From assembly GCA_030622545.1 (NCBI GenBank), contig JAUXGA010000006.1, positions 1 through 64,000 of the forward strand: a stretch of 64,000 nt of DNA, in the 5' to 3' direction. The notes under the pieces are model-generated. The model searched no databases. It saw only the letters and a list, made by a program, of their open reading frames with translations, and had not been told where the DNA came from. How positions within the stretch are numbered: position 1 is the first letter of the stretch; every line of letters starts with the position of its first letter. This document shows, in pieces, positions 6,204 to 62,355 of the stretch. Source of the stretch: a bacterium. Its GTDB lineage: Bacteria > Electryoneota > RPQS01 > DYHQ01. The translations under genes and the position numbers were made by a program.

Positions 6204-6279
6204 ATTCCGGCCGGGTTACGCGCGCAAGCTGTGTGGTTTGGCAGATGAAGATTTGCGCTGAACCCGGCTCGGCGAGAAT
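6204..6279. repeat. Long dispersed hairpin repeat, copy B
   Basis: Runs from ATTCCGGCCGGGTTACGCGC to AACCCGGCTCGGCGAGAAT, in the opposite orientation to copy A. The arms can pair over about 20 nt around a non-conserved 30-nt loop. It sits between the propeller gene and preT. Confidence 0.8.
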
Positions 6280-8963: not shown

Positions 8964-8970
8964 CGTCTCC

Positions 8971-9041
8971 GCCGAGCCGGGTTCAGCGCTAAAACCTGTT
9001 TGCCTAACGATGAAGCTGGCGCGCGTAACCCGGCCGAAATT
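8971..9041. repeat. Long dispersed hairpin repeat, copy C
   Basis: GCCGAGCCGGGTTCAGCGC on the left and GCGCGTAACCCGGCCG on the right, same orientation as copy A. It fills most of the gap between preA and the PorV-like gene. Confidence 0.8.
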
Positions 9042-9058
9042 TTTAAGAAAGGAATATA

Positions 9059-10033
9059 ATGAACCGTCGAATTTTCGCTGTCGCCTGTACGATTCTGCTC
9101 ATCTCCACACCGCTCCTCCATGCAGGAACGAATGGCGGTTTCGCCGGAGCATTCGGGCGGATGGGAGTCGGCGCGCGCGCGAAAGCGCTGGGCGATGCTT
9201 TCACGGGCTACGCAAACGGGCCGGAAGCGATTTATTTTAATCCCGGTGCGCTGCCGTTTCTGGAAACGCGCGAATTCTCGTCGGCGATGTCCGTGATGGC
9301 TCTCGACCGCAGCATGCACTTCCTGTCGTTCGCAACTCCTCTGCATCCCAAGACAGGAGAAATCCGTGCGAACGCCGGATTTGGCGCGGGATGGCTGCAT
9401 GCGGGCGTGGGCGACATCGACAGCCGCGGCTTCGACGGCGAACCGCTGGATATGATGAGCATGTCATCGAATCTCTTCTTCTTTTCTTTCGCGAATCGGT
9501 TTCATCCGAAGGTGGGCATCGGCATCACCGCGAAAGTCGCGTACGAAACCTTCGGCAAAATCGGCAACGAAGGCCGTTCGATAAACGGCAACGGATTCGG
9601 TCTGGATTTCGGCGTGCATGTGCGGCCGATTGACAAGCTCTATGTCGGCGCGCAGGTGAAAGACATCGCGATGAAAACGACATGGAACACGACCGATTAC
9701 TGGTCGCAGGGCACATCGAAAACGGACAAATGGCCGCTGCAATACCGGTTCGGCGCGGCGTACCAACCGGCACCTTATTTGTTAGCGCTGGCCGACATCG
9801 AAGGCTCGGATAAAGAAGACATCCGGCTGCACATCGGCGCAGAAAGCATGTGGCAAGTCGGCGACAAGCAATCCTTCGCTTTGCGCGCAGGCCTCAGCCA
9901 CGAAGACATCGCTTTCGGCTTCGGCCTCTATTTCGACTTCTGGAAGGTGACCTCGAAAGTGGACGTCGCCTACGTCATCGAATCCATCGCCCCGAATGAT
10001 TCGCAGGTCTTGGCGTGGAGCGTAGAGTTTTAG
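9059..10033 (+). CDS. PorV/PorQ family outer-membrane protein
   Basis: A 324-residue predicted outer-membrane beta-barrel with a signal peptide (AVACTILLISTPLLHAG). The signature is the N-terminal segment MGVGARAKALGDAFTGYANG followed by YFNPGALPFLE. This is characteristic of the PorV/PorQ/FadL-like proteins of FCB bacteria, where PorV is an outer-membrane partner of type IX secretion. The C-terminus ends in an aromatic residue (AWSVEF), as expected for a barrel. The ATG has a good ribosome-binding site (AAGGAAT). A second member lies at 13636. The role here is inferred from family and lineage. Confidence 0.82.
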   Translation: MNRRIFAVACTILLISTPLLHAGTNGGFAGAFGRMGVGARAKALGDAFTGYANGPEAIYFNPGALPFLETREFSSAMSVMALDRSMHFLSFATPLHPKTGEIRANAGFGAGWLHAGVGDIDSRGFDGEPLDMMSMSSNLFFFSFANRFHPKVGIGITAKVAYETFGKIGNEGRSINGNGFGLDFGVHVRPIDKLYVGAQVKDIAMKTTWNTTDYWSQGTSKTDKWPLQYRFGAAYQPAPYLLALADIEGSDKEDIRLHIGAESMWQVGDKQSFALRAGLSHEDIAFGFGLYFDFWKVTSKVDVAYVIESIAPNDSQVLAWSVEF

Positions 10034-10051
10034 GCCACAACTGGAGAGAAA

Positions 10052-12175
10052 ATGACAAAAGATTCAGCACAGGAAAAGTGGGTATATCGCGAGCACACAA
10101 GAGTAAAGCACATCTTACTTGAAAAATACCTTTGGGCCTGGATACCTATTCTTGGAAAAGGGAATCCGAAGATCTGCTATTTTGATGGATTTGCAGGTAA
10201 AGGAAAATACGAAGATGGAACTAAAGGCTCGCCAGTAATTGCACTCAAAGTTGCTGACGAAAGAGCAGATTATTACGGAAGAATATTTCTCTACTTCATT
10301 GAAAAGGACAAAAATAACTTTTCTGATCTCGAAAATGTTCTGGAAGCAGAAAGGAAAAATCTAAACAACTCAGATAAAATTGAAATTATCAAAAAAAATG
10401 ATGTCTTTGCAAATACTGTGGATAAGATATTCGATTATCTAAAAGATAAGAAGGGCATTCTTGTTCCATCCTTCTTTTTTATCGATCCTTTTGGTTTCAG
10501 CGGCATTCCCTTCAAAGCTGTAAGTAGAATTTTGGCAAATCCTAAGACAGAGATCTTTTTTACTTTTATGGCGAGAGACATTGGACGCTTCATTCAAGAT
10601 CCTAAACTCAGGGATACTCTTACGGATCTTTTTGGAACTGATCAATGGAAAGAAATAATAAATCTACCTGACAGGGACAAAGGTCTAATTCAGTTGTATA
10701 GGAGACAATTGCACGAGGCGGCAAATGCAAAATTCAGTCTTCACTTCAAAGTGTGTGAAAGCGAGAGATTGCGAACCCTATACTATCTGATCCACGCAAC
10801 AAATAACTTTGACGGTCATTCCATAATGAAATCGGTCATGTTCAATCAGAGTGTTTCGGGAGACTTTGCGTATCTGGGTCCAACAGACGTAACAAAAAGA
10901 TCTCAGACCATACTATTCGACATCCATGATATGGGTCAGTTGAGAGAATTCTTGTTGAAAAGATTTGCGGGTCGGACACTTACCTATGAAAAAATCCAGG
11001 AAGAAGCCTGCTTCCCTTGGTATTCCGAACCACCCTATATTAGTAAACACTATAGAGCAGTCCTAAGAGAACTCAAAAAGGAAAATAAAGTAAGCGTAAG
11101 ACCAGTTACCTCAAAGACACCCAGAGGAATGCAGAAAGATGACAAGATAACGTTTGTTAAAAGCAATCCTATTGAACTAGATATCCCTGATTTAGAACCA
11201 GCTTCTATAAAGAGAATCCCCCGAAGAATCCAAATTCATTATAAAGAGTATGAAGTTCTTGATGGACCCAAACAAACGTTAGTATGGAAGGTTAATGATG
11301 GTTCAATAATCACTCGATTTGATAAGACTCCAATTCCAACCAAAGACACGGATGTTGTCTGTCCCCACTTTATAGAACTCAAGTGGGCATATGGTTGTCC
11401 TTTTGACTGTTCATGGTGCTATCTAAAAGGAACCTTCAGATTTCAACCAACCAAATCGGCTCCTGTTATCAAGCCCTACGAAAAAACAGAACTTCATGTA
11501 CGCAGCTTTTTGGAGGAAGCAAAAACTCCCGAGATTTTGAATACTGGTGAACTCGCTGACTCACTAATGTATGAAAACGGTGAGTCTTCCTTTTCCAAAT
11601 TTATCATACCTCTCTTTGAGACCCAAAATCGACATAAAGTGCTTTTTTTGACGAAATCCGACAATATAAAGAATCTTCTTAAATTGGAATCTCATAAACA
11701 AGTGATTGTCAGCTTCACGCTCAATGCCTTACCCGTTGCGAAAACTTGGGAAAAAGCACCATCAGTTAATAAGAGAATTAAGGCAGCGAAAGAACTTTTT
11801 GATGCCGGATATGAAGTAAGGATTCGAATTGATCCATTAGTTCCGATTAAAAATTGGGAGAAGCATTATATTGAATTGCTCGAAAGTATCTTTGAAAATC
11901 TTACACCTGAAAGGATAACGTTAGGATCCCTACGTGGTCTGCAGAGCACAATTAATAATTGTCCAGATAAAACATGGGTGGACTATCTAACTGAAACGTC
12001 TAATTGGGGTAAGAGAATAGATTTTAGTACTAGATATGAAATCTACGAGCGACTTATCAGCGAGCTAAAACAAAACTATAATTTTCGGAATATCTCTTTA
12101 TGTAAAGAAACGGTTGGTATCTGGGAGGCTCTTGGGGGGAAATACAAGAGAATAAAATGCAATTGCATATGGTGA
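10052..12175 (+). CDS. TcmP-like domain fused to radical SAM (three-Cys-motif) domain
   Basis: A 707-residue two-part protein. The N-terminal ~330 residues match the three-Cys-motif partner family TcmP. They show methyltransferase-like signatures, FDGFAGKG at residues 44-51 and IDPFG at 144-148. A linker follows. The C-terminal ~300 residues form a radical SAM domain resembling spore-photoproduct-lyase/Gp37-Gp68 proteins, with the cluster motif C449-x3-C453-x2-C456 (CPFDCSWC). In other genomes these are usually two adjacent genes; here they are one frame. The gene is clearly A+T-richer than its neighbours and uses AGA arginine codons where they use CGC, so transfer is likely. Function is unproven; nucleic-acid modification, repair or defence are possible. 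Confidence 0.8.
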   Translation: MTKDSAQEKWVYREHTRVKHILLEKYLWAWIPILGKGNPKICYFDGFAGKGKYEDGTKGSPVIALKVADERADYYGRIFLYFIEKDKNNFSDLENVLEAERKNLNNSDKIEIIKKNDVFANTVDKIFDYLKDKKGILVPSFFFIDPFGFSGIPFKAVSRILANPKTEIFFTFMARDIGRFIQDPKLRDTLTDLFGTDQWKEIINLPDRDKGLIQLYRRQLHEAANAKFSLHFKVCESERLRTLYYLIHATNNFDGHSIMKSVMFNQSVSGDFAYLGPTDVTKRSQTILFDIHDMGQLREFLLKRFAGRTLTYEKIQEEACFPWYSEPPYISKHYRAVLRELKKENKVSVRPVTSKTPRGMQKDDKITFVKSNPIELDIPDLEPASIKRIPRRIQIHYKEYEVLDGPKQTLVWKVNDGSIITRFDKTPIPTKDTDVVCPHFIELKWAYGCPFDCSWCYLKGTFRFQPTKSAPVIKPYEKTELHVRSFLEEAKTPEILNTGELADSLMYENGESSFSKFIIPLFETQNRHKVLFLTKSDNIKNLLKLESHKQVIVSFTLNALPVAKTWEKAPSVNKRIKAAKELFDAGYEVRIRIDPLVPIKNWEKHYIELLESIFENLTPERITLGSLRGLQSTINNCPDKTWVDYLTETSNWGKRIDFSTRYEIYERLISELKQNYNFRNISLCKETVGIWEALGGKYKRIKCNCIW

Positions 12176-12184
12176 TGCTTTGAA

Positions 12185-12412
12185 TCTGTGCTGAACCCCG
12201 CTCGGCGAACATGATTTCCGGGCGAATCTGGAGATTCGCCGCGGCGGGATATGGGTCGGCTGCGAGCAGCCAACACCGTGGATTGTATTTCCGCGACCGG
12301 AGGTCGCGGGTAGCAATATACTTGAATATTGAACATTCCGGGCAGATCGGGGGATCTGCCTCGGCGGAACAAGGTCGGCTACAAAGCGGCGAGGCAGCGT
12401 GGATTTGGTAGT
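12185..12412. repeat. Array of hairpin repeats between the TcmP fusion and the nitronate monooxygenase-like gene
   Basis: This explains the 310-bp gap 12176-12485. In order: a half copy of the long repeat (CTGAACCCCGCTCGGCGAA, from 12190); a short hairpin at 12215-12249 (stem GGCGAATC/GATTCGCC); a hairpin GGCTGC/GCAGCC at 12258-12271; CCGCGACC/GGTCGCGG at 12291-12309; and a short hairpin at 12335-12369 (GGCAGATC/GATCTGCC). After each TTCCGG-type hairpin follows a related tail, GGTCGGCT...GCGTGGATT or ACCGTGGATT, so a composite unit seems to be present twice. Confidence 0.75.
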
Positions 12413-12485: not shown

Positions 12486-13610
12486 TTGAAGACGATACCA
12501 ACATTGAGAATTGGTGAACTCGAGGCCAAAATACCCATTGTACAAGGAGGAATGAGTGTTGGAATTTCTCTGGCAGGGTTGGCTTCAGCGGTCGCAAATG
12601 AAGGCGGTATTGGAGTCATCGGCGCTGCCGGTATTGGCATGCTTGAACCCGATTTCGCCACAAATTACAGGGGAACAAATAGAAGAGCCTTAATAAAAGA
12701 AATCCGAAAAGCAAAGGAAATGACGGATGGAATTATAGCCATAAATATCATGGTAGCCGCTACAGATTTCTGTGATCTCGTCATGGATGCGGTTGATGAA
12801 GCGGTTGATATAATCTTCTTTGGAGCAGGACTTCTATTCAGGAACCCCATCACGTTGCCGCCGGAGGAATTGAAAAAGGTTGCCACGAAGCTTGTTCCTA
12901 TCGTGTCGTCTGCGAAAGCCGTAAACATCATATTTCAACGTTGGTCGAAAAACTGCGATCATGTTCCCGATGCCGTCGTTGTCGAAGGGCCGATGGCGGG
13001 TGGGCACCTCGGTTTCAAGCGAGAGAGAATCGATAATCCAGATTATTCTCTCGATAAGATTTTGCCGGAGGTTGTTTCTGCCGTAAAACCCTTTGAGGAA
13101 CAGTATCATAGAAGTATTCCGGTCATCGCCGCCGGAGGCATCTATACCGGAGCGGATATTCATAAATACTTGCAGATGGGAGCGCAAGGAGCGCAAATGG
13201 CGACTCGATTTGTTGCCACTCACGAATGTGATGCTTCCTTGGAATTTAAAGAGTCTTACGTCAATTGCAAAAAAGAGGATTTAGCGATTATCGAAAGCCC
13301 TGTGGGATTGCCGGGAAGAGCGATTCAGAACAAGTACCTTGAAGATGTTTCAGCCGGAATTAGGAAGCCCTTCAAATGTCCGTGGAAATGCCTGATGACC
13401 TGTGATTATAAAAAGGCTCCGTATTGCATTGCTCTGGCATTAACCAACGCCAAAAGAGGGCGTTTTAAAAACGGGTTCGCTTTTGCAGGAGCGAATGCCT
13501 ATCGGATAGATGAAATCATTTCTGTCAAAGAGCTAATCAAAATTCTAACAGAAGAGTATAAAGAGGCGGCAGGTATACCTTGCTCTGAAGAAACCACGGC
13601 GGGTTCTTAA
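12486..13610 (+). CDS. Nitronate monooxygenase-like flavin oxidoreductase
   Basis: FMN-dependent TIM-barrel enzyme of the 2-nitropropane dioxygenase/nitronate monooxygenase family, 374 residues. Motifs include IPIVQGGMSVGISLAGLASA near the N-terminus, the EGPMAGGHLGF loop with the conserved His, VIAAGGIYTGADIHKYLQMG and GAQMATRF (phosphate binding). It carries extra cysteines near the C-terminus (CPWKCLMTCDYKKAPYC), a feature of a clostridial-type subgroup. The start is TTG at 12486 behind GAAAGGAATAG; the next internal ATG would remove the flavin-binding start. The physiological substrate is unknown. Confidence 0.88.
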   Translation: MKTIPTLRIGELEAKIPIVQGGMSVGISLAGLASAVANEGGIGVIGAAGIGMLEPDFATNYRGTNRRALIKEIRKAKEMTDGIIAINIMVAATDFCDLVMDAVDEAVDIIFFGAGLLFRNPITLPPEELKKVATKLVPIVSSAKAVNIIFQRWSKNCDHVPDAVVVEGPMAGGHLGFKRERIDNPDYSLDKILPEVVSAVKPFEEQYHRSIPVIAAGGIYTGADIHKYLQMGAQGAQMATRFVATHECDASLEFKESYVNCKKEDLAIIESPVGLPGRAIQNKYLEDVSAGIRKPFKCPWKCLMTCDYKKAPYCIALALTNAKRGRFKNGFAFAGANAYRIDEIISVKELIKILTEEYKEAAGIPCSEETTAGS

Positions 13611-13635: not shown

Positions 13636-14562
13636 ATGTATGTATCAAAAGGAGATAGGGCGACGGGAACACGACATTTGAAACTCTGGCTGCTGGTGAT
13701 TCTGACAGCGTTGAGTGCGCCGGTGATGGCCGCTCCCGGCTTTACATTCCTGCAGATTGGCGTCGGGGCGCGCGAGGGGGCGATGGGCGGGGTTGGAGCC
13801 GCCTTATCTACCGGACCTTCCGCGGCTTATTTTAATCCAGCGAATCTGACCCTCGCCAAACGCGGCGGCGCGTTGCTAATGCTAAACCGGCATTTCGCGG
13901 ACATCACCAGCCAATATCTCGCCGTAACGATGCGCAGCAGTTCCTGGGCGATTACGCCGCACTATCTGGGAACGACCGTACCGGGAATTGAATTGCGCGA
14001 CCGCCCCACACAGGAGCCTGTCGCGCTGTTCGACAGCCGCAATGCCGCTTTGGGAGTGTCTGTCGCGAGGGAACTTTACGCGGGTCTGCTGGTCGGAGCC
14101 ACTGTAAACTATTTATATGAAAAGATTTATATAGAAGCTTCCGATGGCTGGGGCTTCGATTTCGGCGCGTCATGGGCGGCTCCTATCTCGGGATTGCGAC
14201 TTGGCGCGGCGGTTCAAAACCTTGGACAGGCGAGCAAATTCGTCGCGGAAGCCCCTGACCTCCCCACCTTGCTACGCGGCGGAGCAGCTTTTACAAAATC
14301 GCTTGGGAGGTTTGGCGAGGCGACTATCGCGGCGGACTGGCTTTCAGTTCGGGATCAAAGCCCGGAACAGCGATTCGGCCTCGAACTGGCGACGCTCACT
14401 ATCCTGCGGCTTCGCGGAGGCTTCATCAATGGAGTTGAAGCTTTGGACGCCACCGCCGGATTCGGCCTGTTTTATCGGGGTCTTCAGTTTGATTATGCGT
14501 ATATTCCCTTCCGCGAGGAATTGGGCGAAGGCCACCGGTTTGCATTTGGTGTGGAGCTTTAG
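13636..14562 (+). CDS. PorV/PorQ family outer-membrane protein (second copy)
   Basis: A 308-residue predicted beta-barrel. After a signal peptide (KLWLLVILTALSAPVMAAPG) comes IGVGAREGAMGGVGAALSTG and YFNPANL, the same signature as in the gene at 9059. It ends RFAFGVEL. The ATG at 13636 has no clear ribosome-binding site. An AAAAGGAGATAGG lies inside the frame, upstream of a TTG at 13678, which would give a cleaner signal peptide, so the true start may be 13678. The role is inferred as an outer-membrane accessory or transport barrel. Confidence 0.78.
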   Translation: MYVSKGDRATGTRHLKLWLLVILTALSAPVMAAPGFTFLQIGVGAREGAMGGVGAALSTGPSAAYFNPANLTLAKRGGALLMLNRHFADITSQYLAVTMRSSSWAITPHYLGTTVPGIELRDRPTQEPVALFDSRNAALGVSVARELYAGLLVGATVNYLYEKIYIEASDGWGFDFGASWAAPISGLRLGAAVQNLGQASKFVAEAPDLPTLLRGGAAFTKSLGRFGEATIAADWLSVRDQSPEQRFGLELATLTILRLRGGFINGVEALDATAGFGLFYRGLQFDYAYIPFREELGEGHRFAFGVEL

Positions 14563-14764: not shown

Positions 14765-14772
14765 ATTCCAAC

Positions 14773-14806
14773 ATTCCGGGCAGATCAGGGGATCTGCCTC
14801 GGCGAG
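14773..14806. repeat. Short constant-end hairpin repeat
   Basis: ATTCCGG then a perfect stem GGCAGATC/GATCTGCC with loop AGGG, then TCGGCGAG. It is almost identical to the copy at 12335. Confidence 0.75.
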
Positions 14807-19556: not shown

Positions 19557-19662
19557 AATTCCGGCCGGGGCCTGAGCGACTCGGCTCGGTGAATATGATT
19601 TCCGGGCGAATCTGGAGATTCGCCGCGGCGGGAAAATTCAATCTGGGGATTCACCGCGACGG
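19557..19662. repeat. Hairpin repeat cluster (shortened long repeat plus two short hairpins)
   Basis: 19557-19595 keeps only the two ends of the long repeat (ATTCCGGCCGGG and GGCTCGGTGAATAT) with the middle lost. 19599-19633 is a short hairpin with stem GGCGAATC/GATTCGCC, the same as the copy at 12215. 19636-19662 is a decayed third unit (AATC TGGG GATT then CCGCG). Confidence 0.7.
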
Positions 19663-53282: not shown

Positions 53283-53356
53283 ACTCGCCGAGCCGGGTTA
53301 AGCGCAGATTCCCTTCTGATGAACGATGAAAAACCGCGCGCAACCCGGCCGGAATT
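53283..53356. repeat. Long dispersed hairpin repeat, copy F
   Basis: ACTCGCCGAGCCGGGTTAAG on the left and CGCGCGCAACCCGGCCGGAA on the right. The left half shares GATAACTCGCCGA and GCGCAGATTCCC with copy H at 62263. It lies within the open extension upstream of the aconitase gene, which argues for the later start. Confidence 0.8.
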
Positions 53357-60208: not shown

Positions 60209-60248
60209 GTAGTCAACTTTTTTACGATACAAGGGGGGCGACCTTAAA

Positions 60249-60325
60249 ATTCCGGCCGGGTTACGCGCGATAAATTCATTGGTTGGTTTACGGGACTCTG
60301 CGCTGAACCCGGCTCGGCGGGAATT
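60249..60325. repeat. Long dispersed hairpin repeat, copy G
   Basis: ATTCCGGCCGGGTTACGCGC on the left and CGCTGAACCCGGCTCGGCGG then GAATT on the right, same orientation as copy B. It fills the gap between pta and the KamA-family gene. Confidence 0.82.
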
Positions 60326-62262: not shown

Positions 62263-62337
62263 AACTCGCCGAACCGTTCAGCGCAGATTCCCGTTGGCCA
62301 AACAATAGAGCTGTCGCGCGTAACCCGGCCGGAATTT
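62263..62337. repeat. Long dispersed hairpin repeat, copy H
   Basis: Left arm ACTCGCCGAACCGTTCAGCG (slightly decayed), right arm GTCGCGCGTAACCCGGCCGG. It ends 19 bp before the IS element and is not part of it. Confidence 0.75.
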
Positions 62338-62355
62338 TTAAAGTCACTCCCCTTA

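Follow-up and report, generated by a model that had tools for sequence, protein, structure and literature searches.

The TcmP–radical SAM fusion gene and its two halves

The window, that is, the whole stretch of 64,000 nucleotides analysed here, contains on its forward strand a gene (10052-12175) encoding a TcmP–radical SAM fusion protein of 707 aa. The frame opens with an ATG, preceded by GGAG at 10043-10046, and continues to its stop codon with no interruption; the gene is real and intact. A single frame of 707 residues carrying both domains had been described in the initial annotation, which was made from the sequence alone, and this description holds.

The TcmP domain occupies most of the N half (10091-10843, forward strand, aa 14-264) and matches TIGR04474 with 204.7 bits (E 2.4e-60; curated cut-off of 53) over positions 1-260 of the 263 in the model. 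It includes the motifs DGFAGKG (aa 45-51) and IDPFG (aa 144-148), and residues K19, D45, G49, G51, P61, D145, P146 and G148 are invariant across an alignment of 31 TcmP rows. Each half of the protein was modelled separately with AlphaFold2, using alignments of viral relatives as input, and the resulting models were compared with the PDB using Foldseek. The top matches of the N-half model (pLDDT 85.4) were class I methyltransferases. The best nucleic-acid methyltransferase among them was the 23S rRNA m6A methyltransferase RlmJ (6qe5, E 6.1e-6, TM 0.56 on the target). The resemblance to RlmJ lies in the fold: a search against PDB sequences returned no match, and the TcmP half reads DPFG, whereas RlmJ-type enzymes carry DPPY. 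The profile match and the predicted structure bear out the methyltransferase-like TcmP half initially recognized from FDGFAGKG and IDPFG. By its predicted fold and motifs, the N half is a class I SAM methyltransferase with putative methylation activity. It also contains a GMT-like winged helix-turn-helix (wHTH) on the same strand (10898-11104, aa 283-351; PF22560, 43.3 bits, cut-off of 27), and it matches the PADLOC profile PDC-M30A at E 2.1e-38.

The C half (11252-12172, forward strand, aa 401-707) is a radical SAM domain of the spore photoproduct lyase (SPL) type. It matches the SPL profile PF20903 at aa 445-620 with 54.1 bits (cut-off of 27), the SPL equivalog TIGR04070 with 70.7 bits, far under its cut-off of 400, and PF04055 with 19.2 bits, below its cut-off of 29.5. 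The radical SAM [4Fe-4S] motif C449xxxC453xxC456 (CPFDCSWC; 11396-11419, forward strand, aa 449-456) is invariant in alignments A2, A4 and A6. The model of this half (pLDDT 89.8) had spore photoproduct lyase as its best PDB match in Foldseek (E 8.6e-14, probability 1.0), and other radical SAM enzymes were matched as well. The CxxxCxxC motif and the modelled barrel place the C half in the radical SAM superfamily. The initial annotation was thus right in assigning a radical SAM partner with this motif, but not in its family: instead of the usual DUF5131/PF07505, the partner is of the SPL type (PF20903). DUF5131 was ruled out by HMM search, as the Pfam profile search of the C half gave no match to it at E<=1. 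A PADLOC search of the C half returned nothing, with neither PDC-M30B nor PDC-M41B matched; DUF5131 proteins themselves match PDC-M30B at E 9e-120.

The protein has in common with spore photoproduct lyase the Pfam match, the nearest solved fold and a CxxxCxxC motif followed by Tyr-Leu, but differs from it in three respects: it is fused to TcmP, it has no catalytic Cys and it has four additional near-invariant Cys. Where SPL has its H-donor Cys (C140/C141), the motif NTGELADSL (11540-11566, forward strand, aa 497-505) has a Glu. The family of the C half reads GE(L/I)xD at this position, and the consensus of the class, built on 34 sequences, has no Cys there. The invariant NSMSDLF of DUF5131 aligns to the same position only weakly (hhalign probability of 18%). 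Glu thus occupies the position of the SPL Cys in the C-half family, and so, on that weak profile match, does Ser in DUF5131. The additional residues are Cys 437 (11360-11362, forward strand) and Cys 684, in a CKE motif, together with Cys 703 and 705, in CNC (12101-12166, forward strand). Among 34 SPL-type sequences, each of them is present in 94-100%, whereas in DUF5131 only the three radical SAM Cys are fully conserved. The four may be ligands of a second Fe-S or metal site. Strict SPL-type photoproduct repair is disfavoured and very unlikely, because the H-donor Cys is absent; the missing catalytic residue and the equivalog score under its cut-off rule out spore photoproduct lyase function. 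The loss of this Cys and the gain of four others point to a chemistry other than photoproduct repair.

Insertion site, base composition and flanking repeats

The fusion gene has a GC content of 0.379 and a GC3 of 0.350, the lowest GC3 among the 43 window ORFs of >=200 aa (median of 0.565). Its left border is a PorV/PorQ-like core gene upstream (9059-10033, forward strand). An NMO/FabK-like flavoprotein gene (12486-13610, forward strand, GC 0.46) lies between the fusion and a second PorV-like gene (13636-14562, forward strand). Two order-level relatives (G002 and G004) have the PorV-like genes side by side, leaving the site empty, whereas in the window the fusion and the NMO/FabK-like gene separate them. 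A family-level relative (G001) carries an HSDR_N/DUF5655 gene with a PDC-S18 match (L258, G001:C57, 344-2535) after the first PorV-like gene. Homologues of the radical half at E<=1e-12 were absent from all other genomes of the order searched. The fusion gene was horizontally acquired, given its lowest GC3, the empty site in relatives and the restriction-type gene at the corresponding site of G001. An acquired gene with a base composition differing from its neighbours had been proposed initially, and the GC3, the empty site and the order-wide absence agree with that proposal. Since the site is empty in G002 and G004 and holds the HSDR_N/PDC-S18 gene in G001, it looks like a small insertion (defence) hot spot amid core genes. 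In the source genome, the fusion gene stands alone between core genes, with no island. The NMO/FabK-like gene has orthologues elsewhere in the order, leaving a two-gene acquired unit with the fusion unsupported.

On its 3' side, the gene is followed by hairpin-forming intergenic repeats (12187-12366, no strand assigned), which had been taken for flanks of defence or mobile cargo. The repeats exist, but they are dispersed throughout the genome and not specific to this gene: a search with the first 66 bases gave 12 matches, spread over nine contigs, and these genome-wide copies rule out attachment sites or cargo flanks. Related intergenic copies occur in the window at 155-223, 6204-6279, 8969-9046, 14770-14804, 19579-19633, 53286-53354, 60246-60324 and 62265-62341. 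The window repeats are of two related types, with a hairpin at 12187-12250 (z -3.5), and an Rfam search near the 3' repeats gave no match. They constitute a genome-wide REP- or MITE-like family of this bacterium.

Recurrent fusion of TcmP with radical SAM partners

We surveyed 386 genomes and found TcmP in 63 of them, with 57 TcmP genes called in the neighbourhoods fetched. Four of these were fused and 48 had an adjoining radical SAM gene; among the remaining five, three adjoined a radical SAM ORF and two were at contig ends. The TcmP gene came first in 37 of the 48 adjacent pairs, and the two genes mostly overlapped, in many cases by 4 bases, or abutted. Nearly all viral TcmPs had a radical SAM neighbour, in the same order. 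These figures (48/57 adjacent and 4/57 fused) confirm that the two families are normally adjacent separate genes, as initially stated. In the window protein, the partnership of TcmP with a three-Cys radical SAM domain is found within one chain; elsewhere, separate adjacency is the rule. The partners fall into DUF5131 (the majority), an SPL-type class, an rSAM_mob_pairB-like class and one further small class, and TcmP with radical SAM partners is widespread in chromosomes, prophages and plasmids. Three-gene forms with two radical SAM genes and one TcmP were also seen (L218-L220, L114, L179 and L180), on viral contigs (two SPL-type) and haloarchaeal plasmids.

Fused proteins were found in seven genomes, one in each, always as a single chain with TcmP first. 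Alongside the window protein, four belong to its SPL-type radical SAM subfamily (L055, L069, L151 and L156, the last cut by a contig end), whereas the other two (L089 and L095) have a different radical SAM class, nearest to rSAM_mob_pairB/Rv2578c-like proteins. Separate pairs often overlap by a few bases, and a single error could merge their frames; however, the occurrence of fused proteins in as many as seven genomes, with conserved sequence running through the N-terminal region of the radical half, rules out two genes joined by an assembly or sequencing error. Such an artefact is extremely improbable for the window gene and already refuted for the fusion family as a whole. The sequencing-created join that the initial annotation had considered is likewise contradicted by the six other genomes in which an ORF joins the two parts in this order.

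The TcmP tree requires at least four switches between the fused and separate states. A single ancestral fusion, with all fused TcmPs in one clade, was rejected by the AU test (p-AU 0.0004). Similar fusions have therefore arisen several times, in unrelated microbes. Given this repeated and independent origin, joint action of the two halves is very probable, and the recurrence suggests that both active sites contribute to a single reaction or act on a single target. Among the SPL-type fusions, identity is 58-73% in the radical half and 22-43% in the TcmP half, as if one radical chemistry were paired with exchangeable TcmP target modules. A radical half that stays constant beside a methyltransferase half that varies suggests a division of labour that can be tested. 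A pattern search for relatives in the genome contigs found one distant locus only.

Gene neighbourhoods and candidate functions

At E<=1e-15, 104 immediate neighbours of TcmP pairs matched 209 PADLOC families, as against seven matched by 104 control genes from distant places in a subset of the same genomes; these are counts of families and not of genes, as one restriction-modification (RM) gene can match many, and the contrast is strong but has no measured odds ratio. Among those listed, the families matched were mostly RM parts. Pfam domains in these neighbours included, on the RM side, N6_N4_Mtase (5), ResIII (5), Eco57I (3) and MmeI (3), and on the SOS/repair side, S24 (3), LexA (2), UvrB (2) and RecA (1). 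Rhizobium plasmid pC6.5b has a DUF5131-TcmP pair and a second TcmP adjoining a DEAD/DEAH helicase, in an island that also contains RT, UvrD, a type ISP RM and DUF262. The defence-like setting suggested in the initial annotation is thus upheld for the family, whose neighbours are rich in RM genes, but not for the gene in its source genome, where there is no island around it. Elsewhere, a TcmP-SPL pair lies in a gene run with an nSTAND3 NTPase (PDC-S73) and an Eco57I-like type IIG enzyme (L160, 8011-15960).

In Gordonia phages ThankyouJordi and Easley, TcmP is located directly behind the immunity repressor, a place typical of prophage-expressed genes. Very similar TcmP genes behind the repressor, together with a convergent DUF5131-like gene, were observed in Gordonia phages of two genera (L113, 8290-10868; L178, 4377-6868), and this locus is a candidate prophage-expressed defence cassette. 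In Sinorhizobium, a TcmP gene is tabulated next to the defence gene Hna among genes affected by NolR (PMC12445080). One paper reports PDC-M30 predictions for 32 P. aeruginosa strains, with phage resistance in 68.8% of them; this is a correlation only (PMC10855318).

Other neighbourhoods are linked to DNA repair. In one genome (G092), a 719-aa TcmP-SPL fusion (L055, G092:C223, 6028-9991) is flanked by recA and by a RecX-like gene, the latter recognized by eye, and a second TcmP pair adjoins lexA (L077). SOS control of these two loci is possible. Burkholderia TcmP pairs have imuA and genes for a Y-family and an error-prone polymerase nearby, and a Streptomyces pair has an SRAP gene nearby. Relatives in the SPL-type subfamily also occur in housekeeping operons, namely recA-recX, mnmA, rimO and yidC-mnmE (mnmA, rimO and mnmE assigned by eye).

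TcmP with a radical SAM neighbour is already known and is listed among candidate defence systems. The window protein resembles TcmP with DUF5131 (phage Gp37/Gp68; PDC-M30 and PDC-M41) in having a TcmP domain over its cut-off, a PDC-M30A match and TcmP placed before the radical SAM domain. It differs in being one chain and in its SPL-type partner with CX3CX2C, whereas DUF5131 has CX6CX2C. It therefore has the A component of PDC-M30 (TcmP) but not the B component (DUF5131), in line with the lack of PDC-M30B and PDC-M41B matches. The single-chain SPL-type form is a new version of the known TcmP pair. In the literature searched, which included few subscription journals, we found no functional paper on the TcmP pair and none on a fusion, no functional paper on TcmP, DUF5131, GMT or SPL in defence, and no experiment showing defence by any TcmP pair.

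Our best explanation, put forward tentatively, is that the fusion is a nucleic-acid enzyme with two coupled active sites in one chain, serving defence. The wHTH and the methyltransferase domain would bind nucleic acid, present a target base and probably methylate it. The SPL-type domain would then spend a second SAM to generate a 5'-deoxyadenosyl radical acting on the same base or on the newly installed methyl, giving a modified, cross-linked or cleaved product. The putative second Fe-S or metal site (Cys 437, 684, 703 and 705) may assist the radical step. The radical half, being conserved, would always perform the same chemistry, and the choice of target would fall to the divergent TcmP half, with the fusion coupling the methyltransferase and radical steps in one chain. 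As repeated fusion links both active sites to one reaction or target, the single-chain form offers the least complicated protein with which to begin biochemical work. The physiological role would most likely be phage or plasmid defence, and the fusion would then be a single-gene relative of PDC-M30, a candidate system. Defence is likely given that the neighbours of TcmP pairs are enriched in RM genes and that TcmP with DUF5131 constitutes PDC-M30/M41; the HSDR_N/PDC-S18 gene at the sister site also favours it. Against defence, the fusion protein contains no nuclease or killing domain, the gene is solitary among core genes, and several subfamily relatives are in housekeeping operons. A more specific proposal, which we consider unlikely, is a new hypermodified or cross-linked base for immunity, with an exchangeable TcmP half methylating and the SPL half acting radically with the second metal site.

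The main rival to defence is SOS-linked nucleic-acid repair, in which the SPL-like half would reverse or process a damaged or unusual DNA or RNA base, and mobile elements would carry the pair for improved survival. Spore photoproduct lyase is the closest relative of the radical half in sequence and fold, and the recA and lexA loci of G092, the Burkholderia polymerase genes and the Streptomyces SRAP gene all fit such a role. However, with Glu in this protein and Ser in DUF5131 where SPL has its H-donor Cys, SPL chemistry as such is excluded, RM genes outnumber SOS genes as neighbours of TcmP pairs, and a methyltransferase is an odd partner for repair, so that we regard this reading as possible but rather doubtful.

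The frequent carriage of the pair by phages and plasmids, with RM genes adjoining and methyltransferase motifs conserved, could instead reflect cargo serving the mobile element itself, that is, counter-defence or self-marking in which the pair modifies phage or plasmid DNA against host restriction. This is quite unlikely, as in Gordonia phages the gene follows the repressor within the lysogeny region, away from replication genes, and the gene also occurs alone on chromosomes, as in the source genome. We give still less credence to a radical half that matures or regulates the TcmP half, or to both halves acting on a small nucleotide-like molecule in the manner of viperin. Several distant radical SAM classes partner TcmP, so the partner fold is not fixed, but nucleic acid is indicated by the wHTH and by both folds, RlmJ-like and SPL-like, and a weak profile match hints at a motif common to the partner classes where SPL has its Cys.

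SPL-type genes with the same extra Cys and a GExxD motif were also observed on IMG/VR contigs, some of them >100 kb, with no TcmP found adjoining (L222, L223 and L225-L235). We regard these as large-phage homologues with another role or partner.
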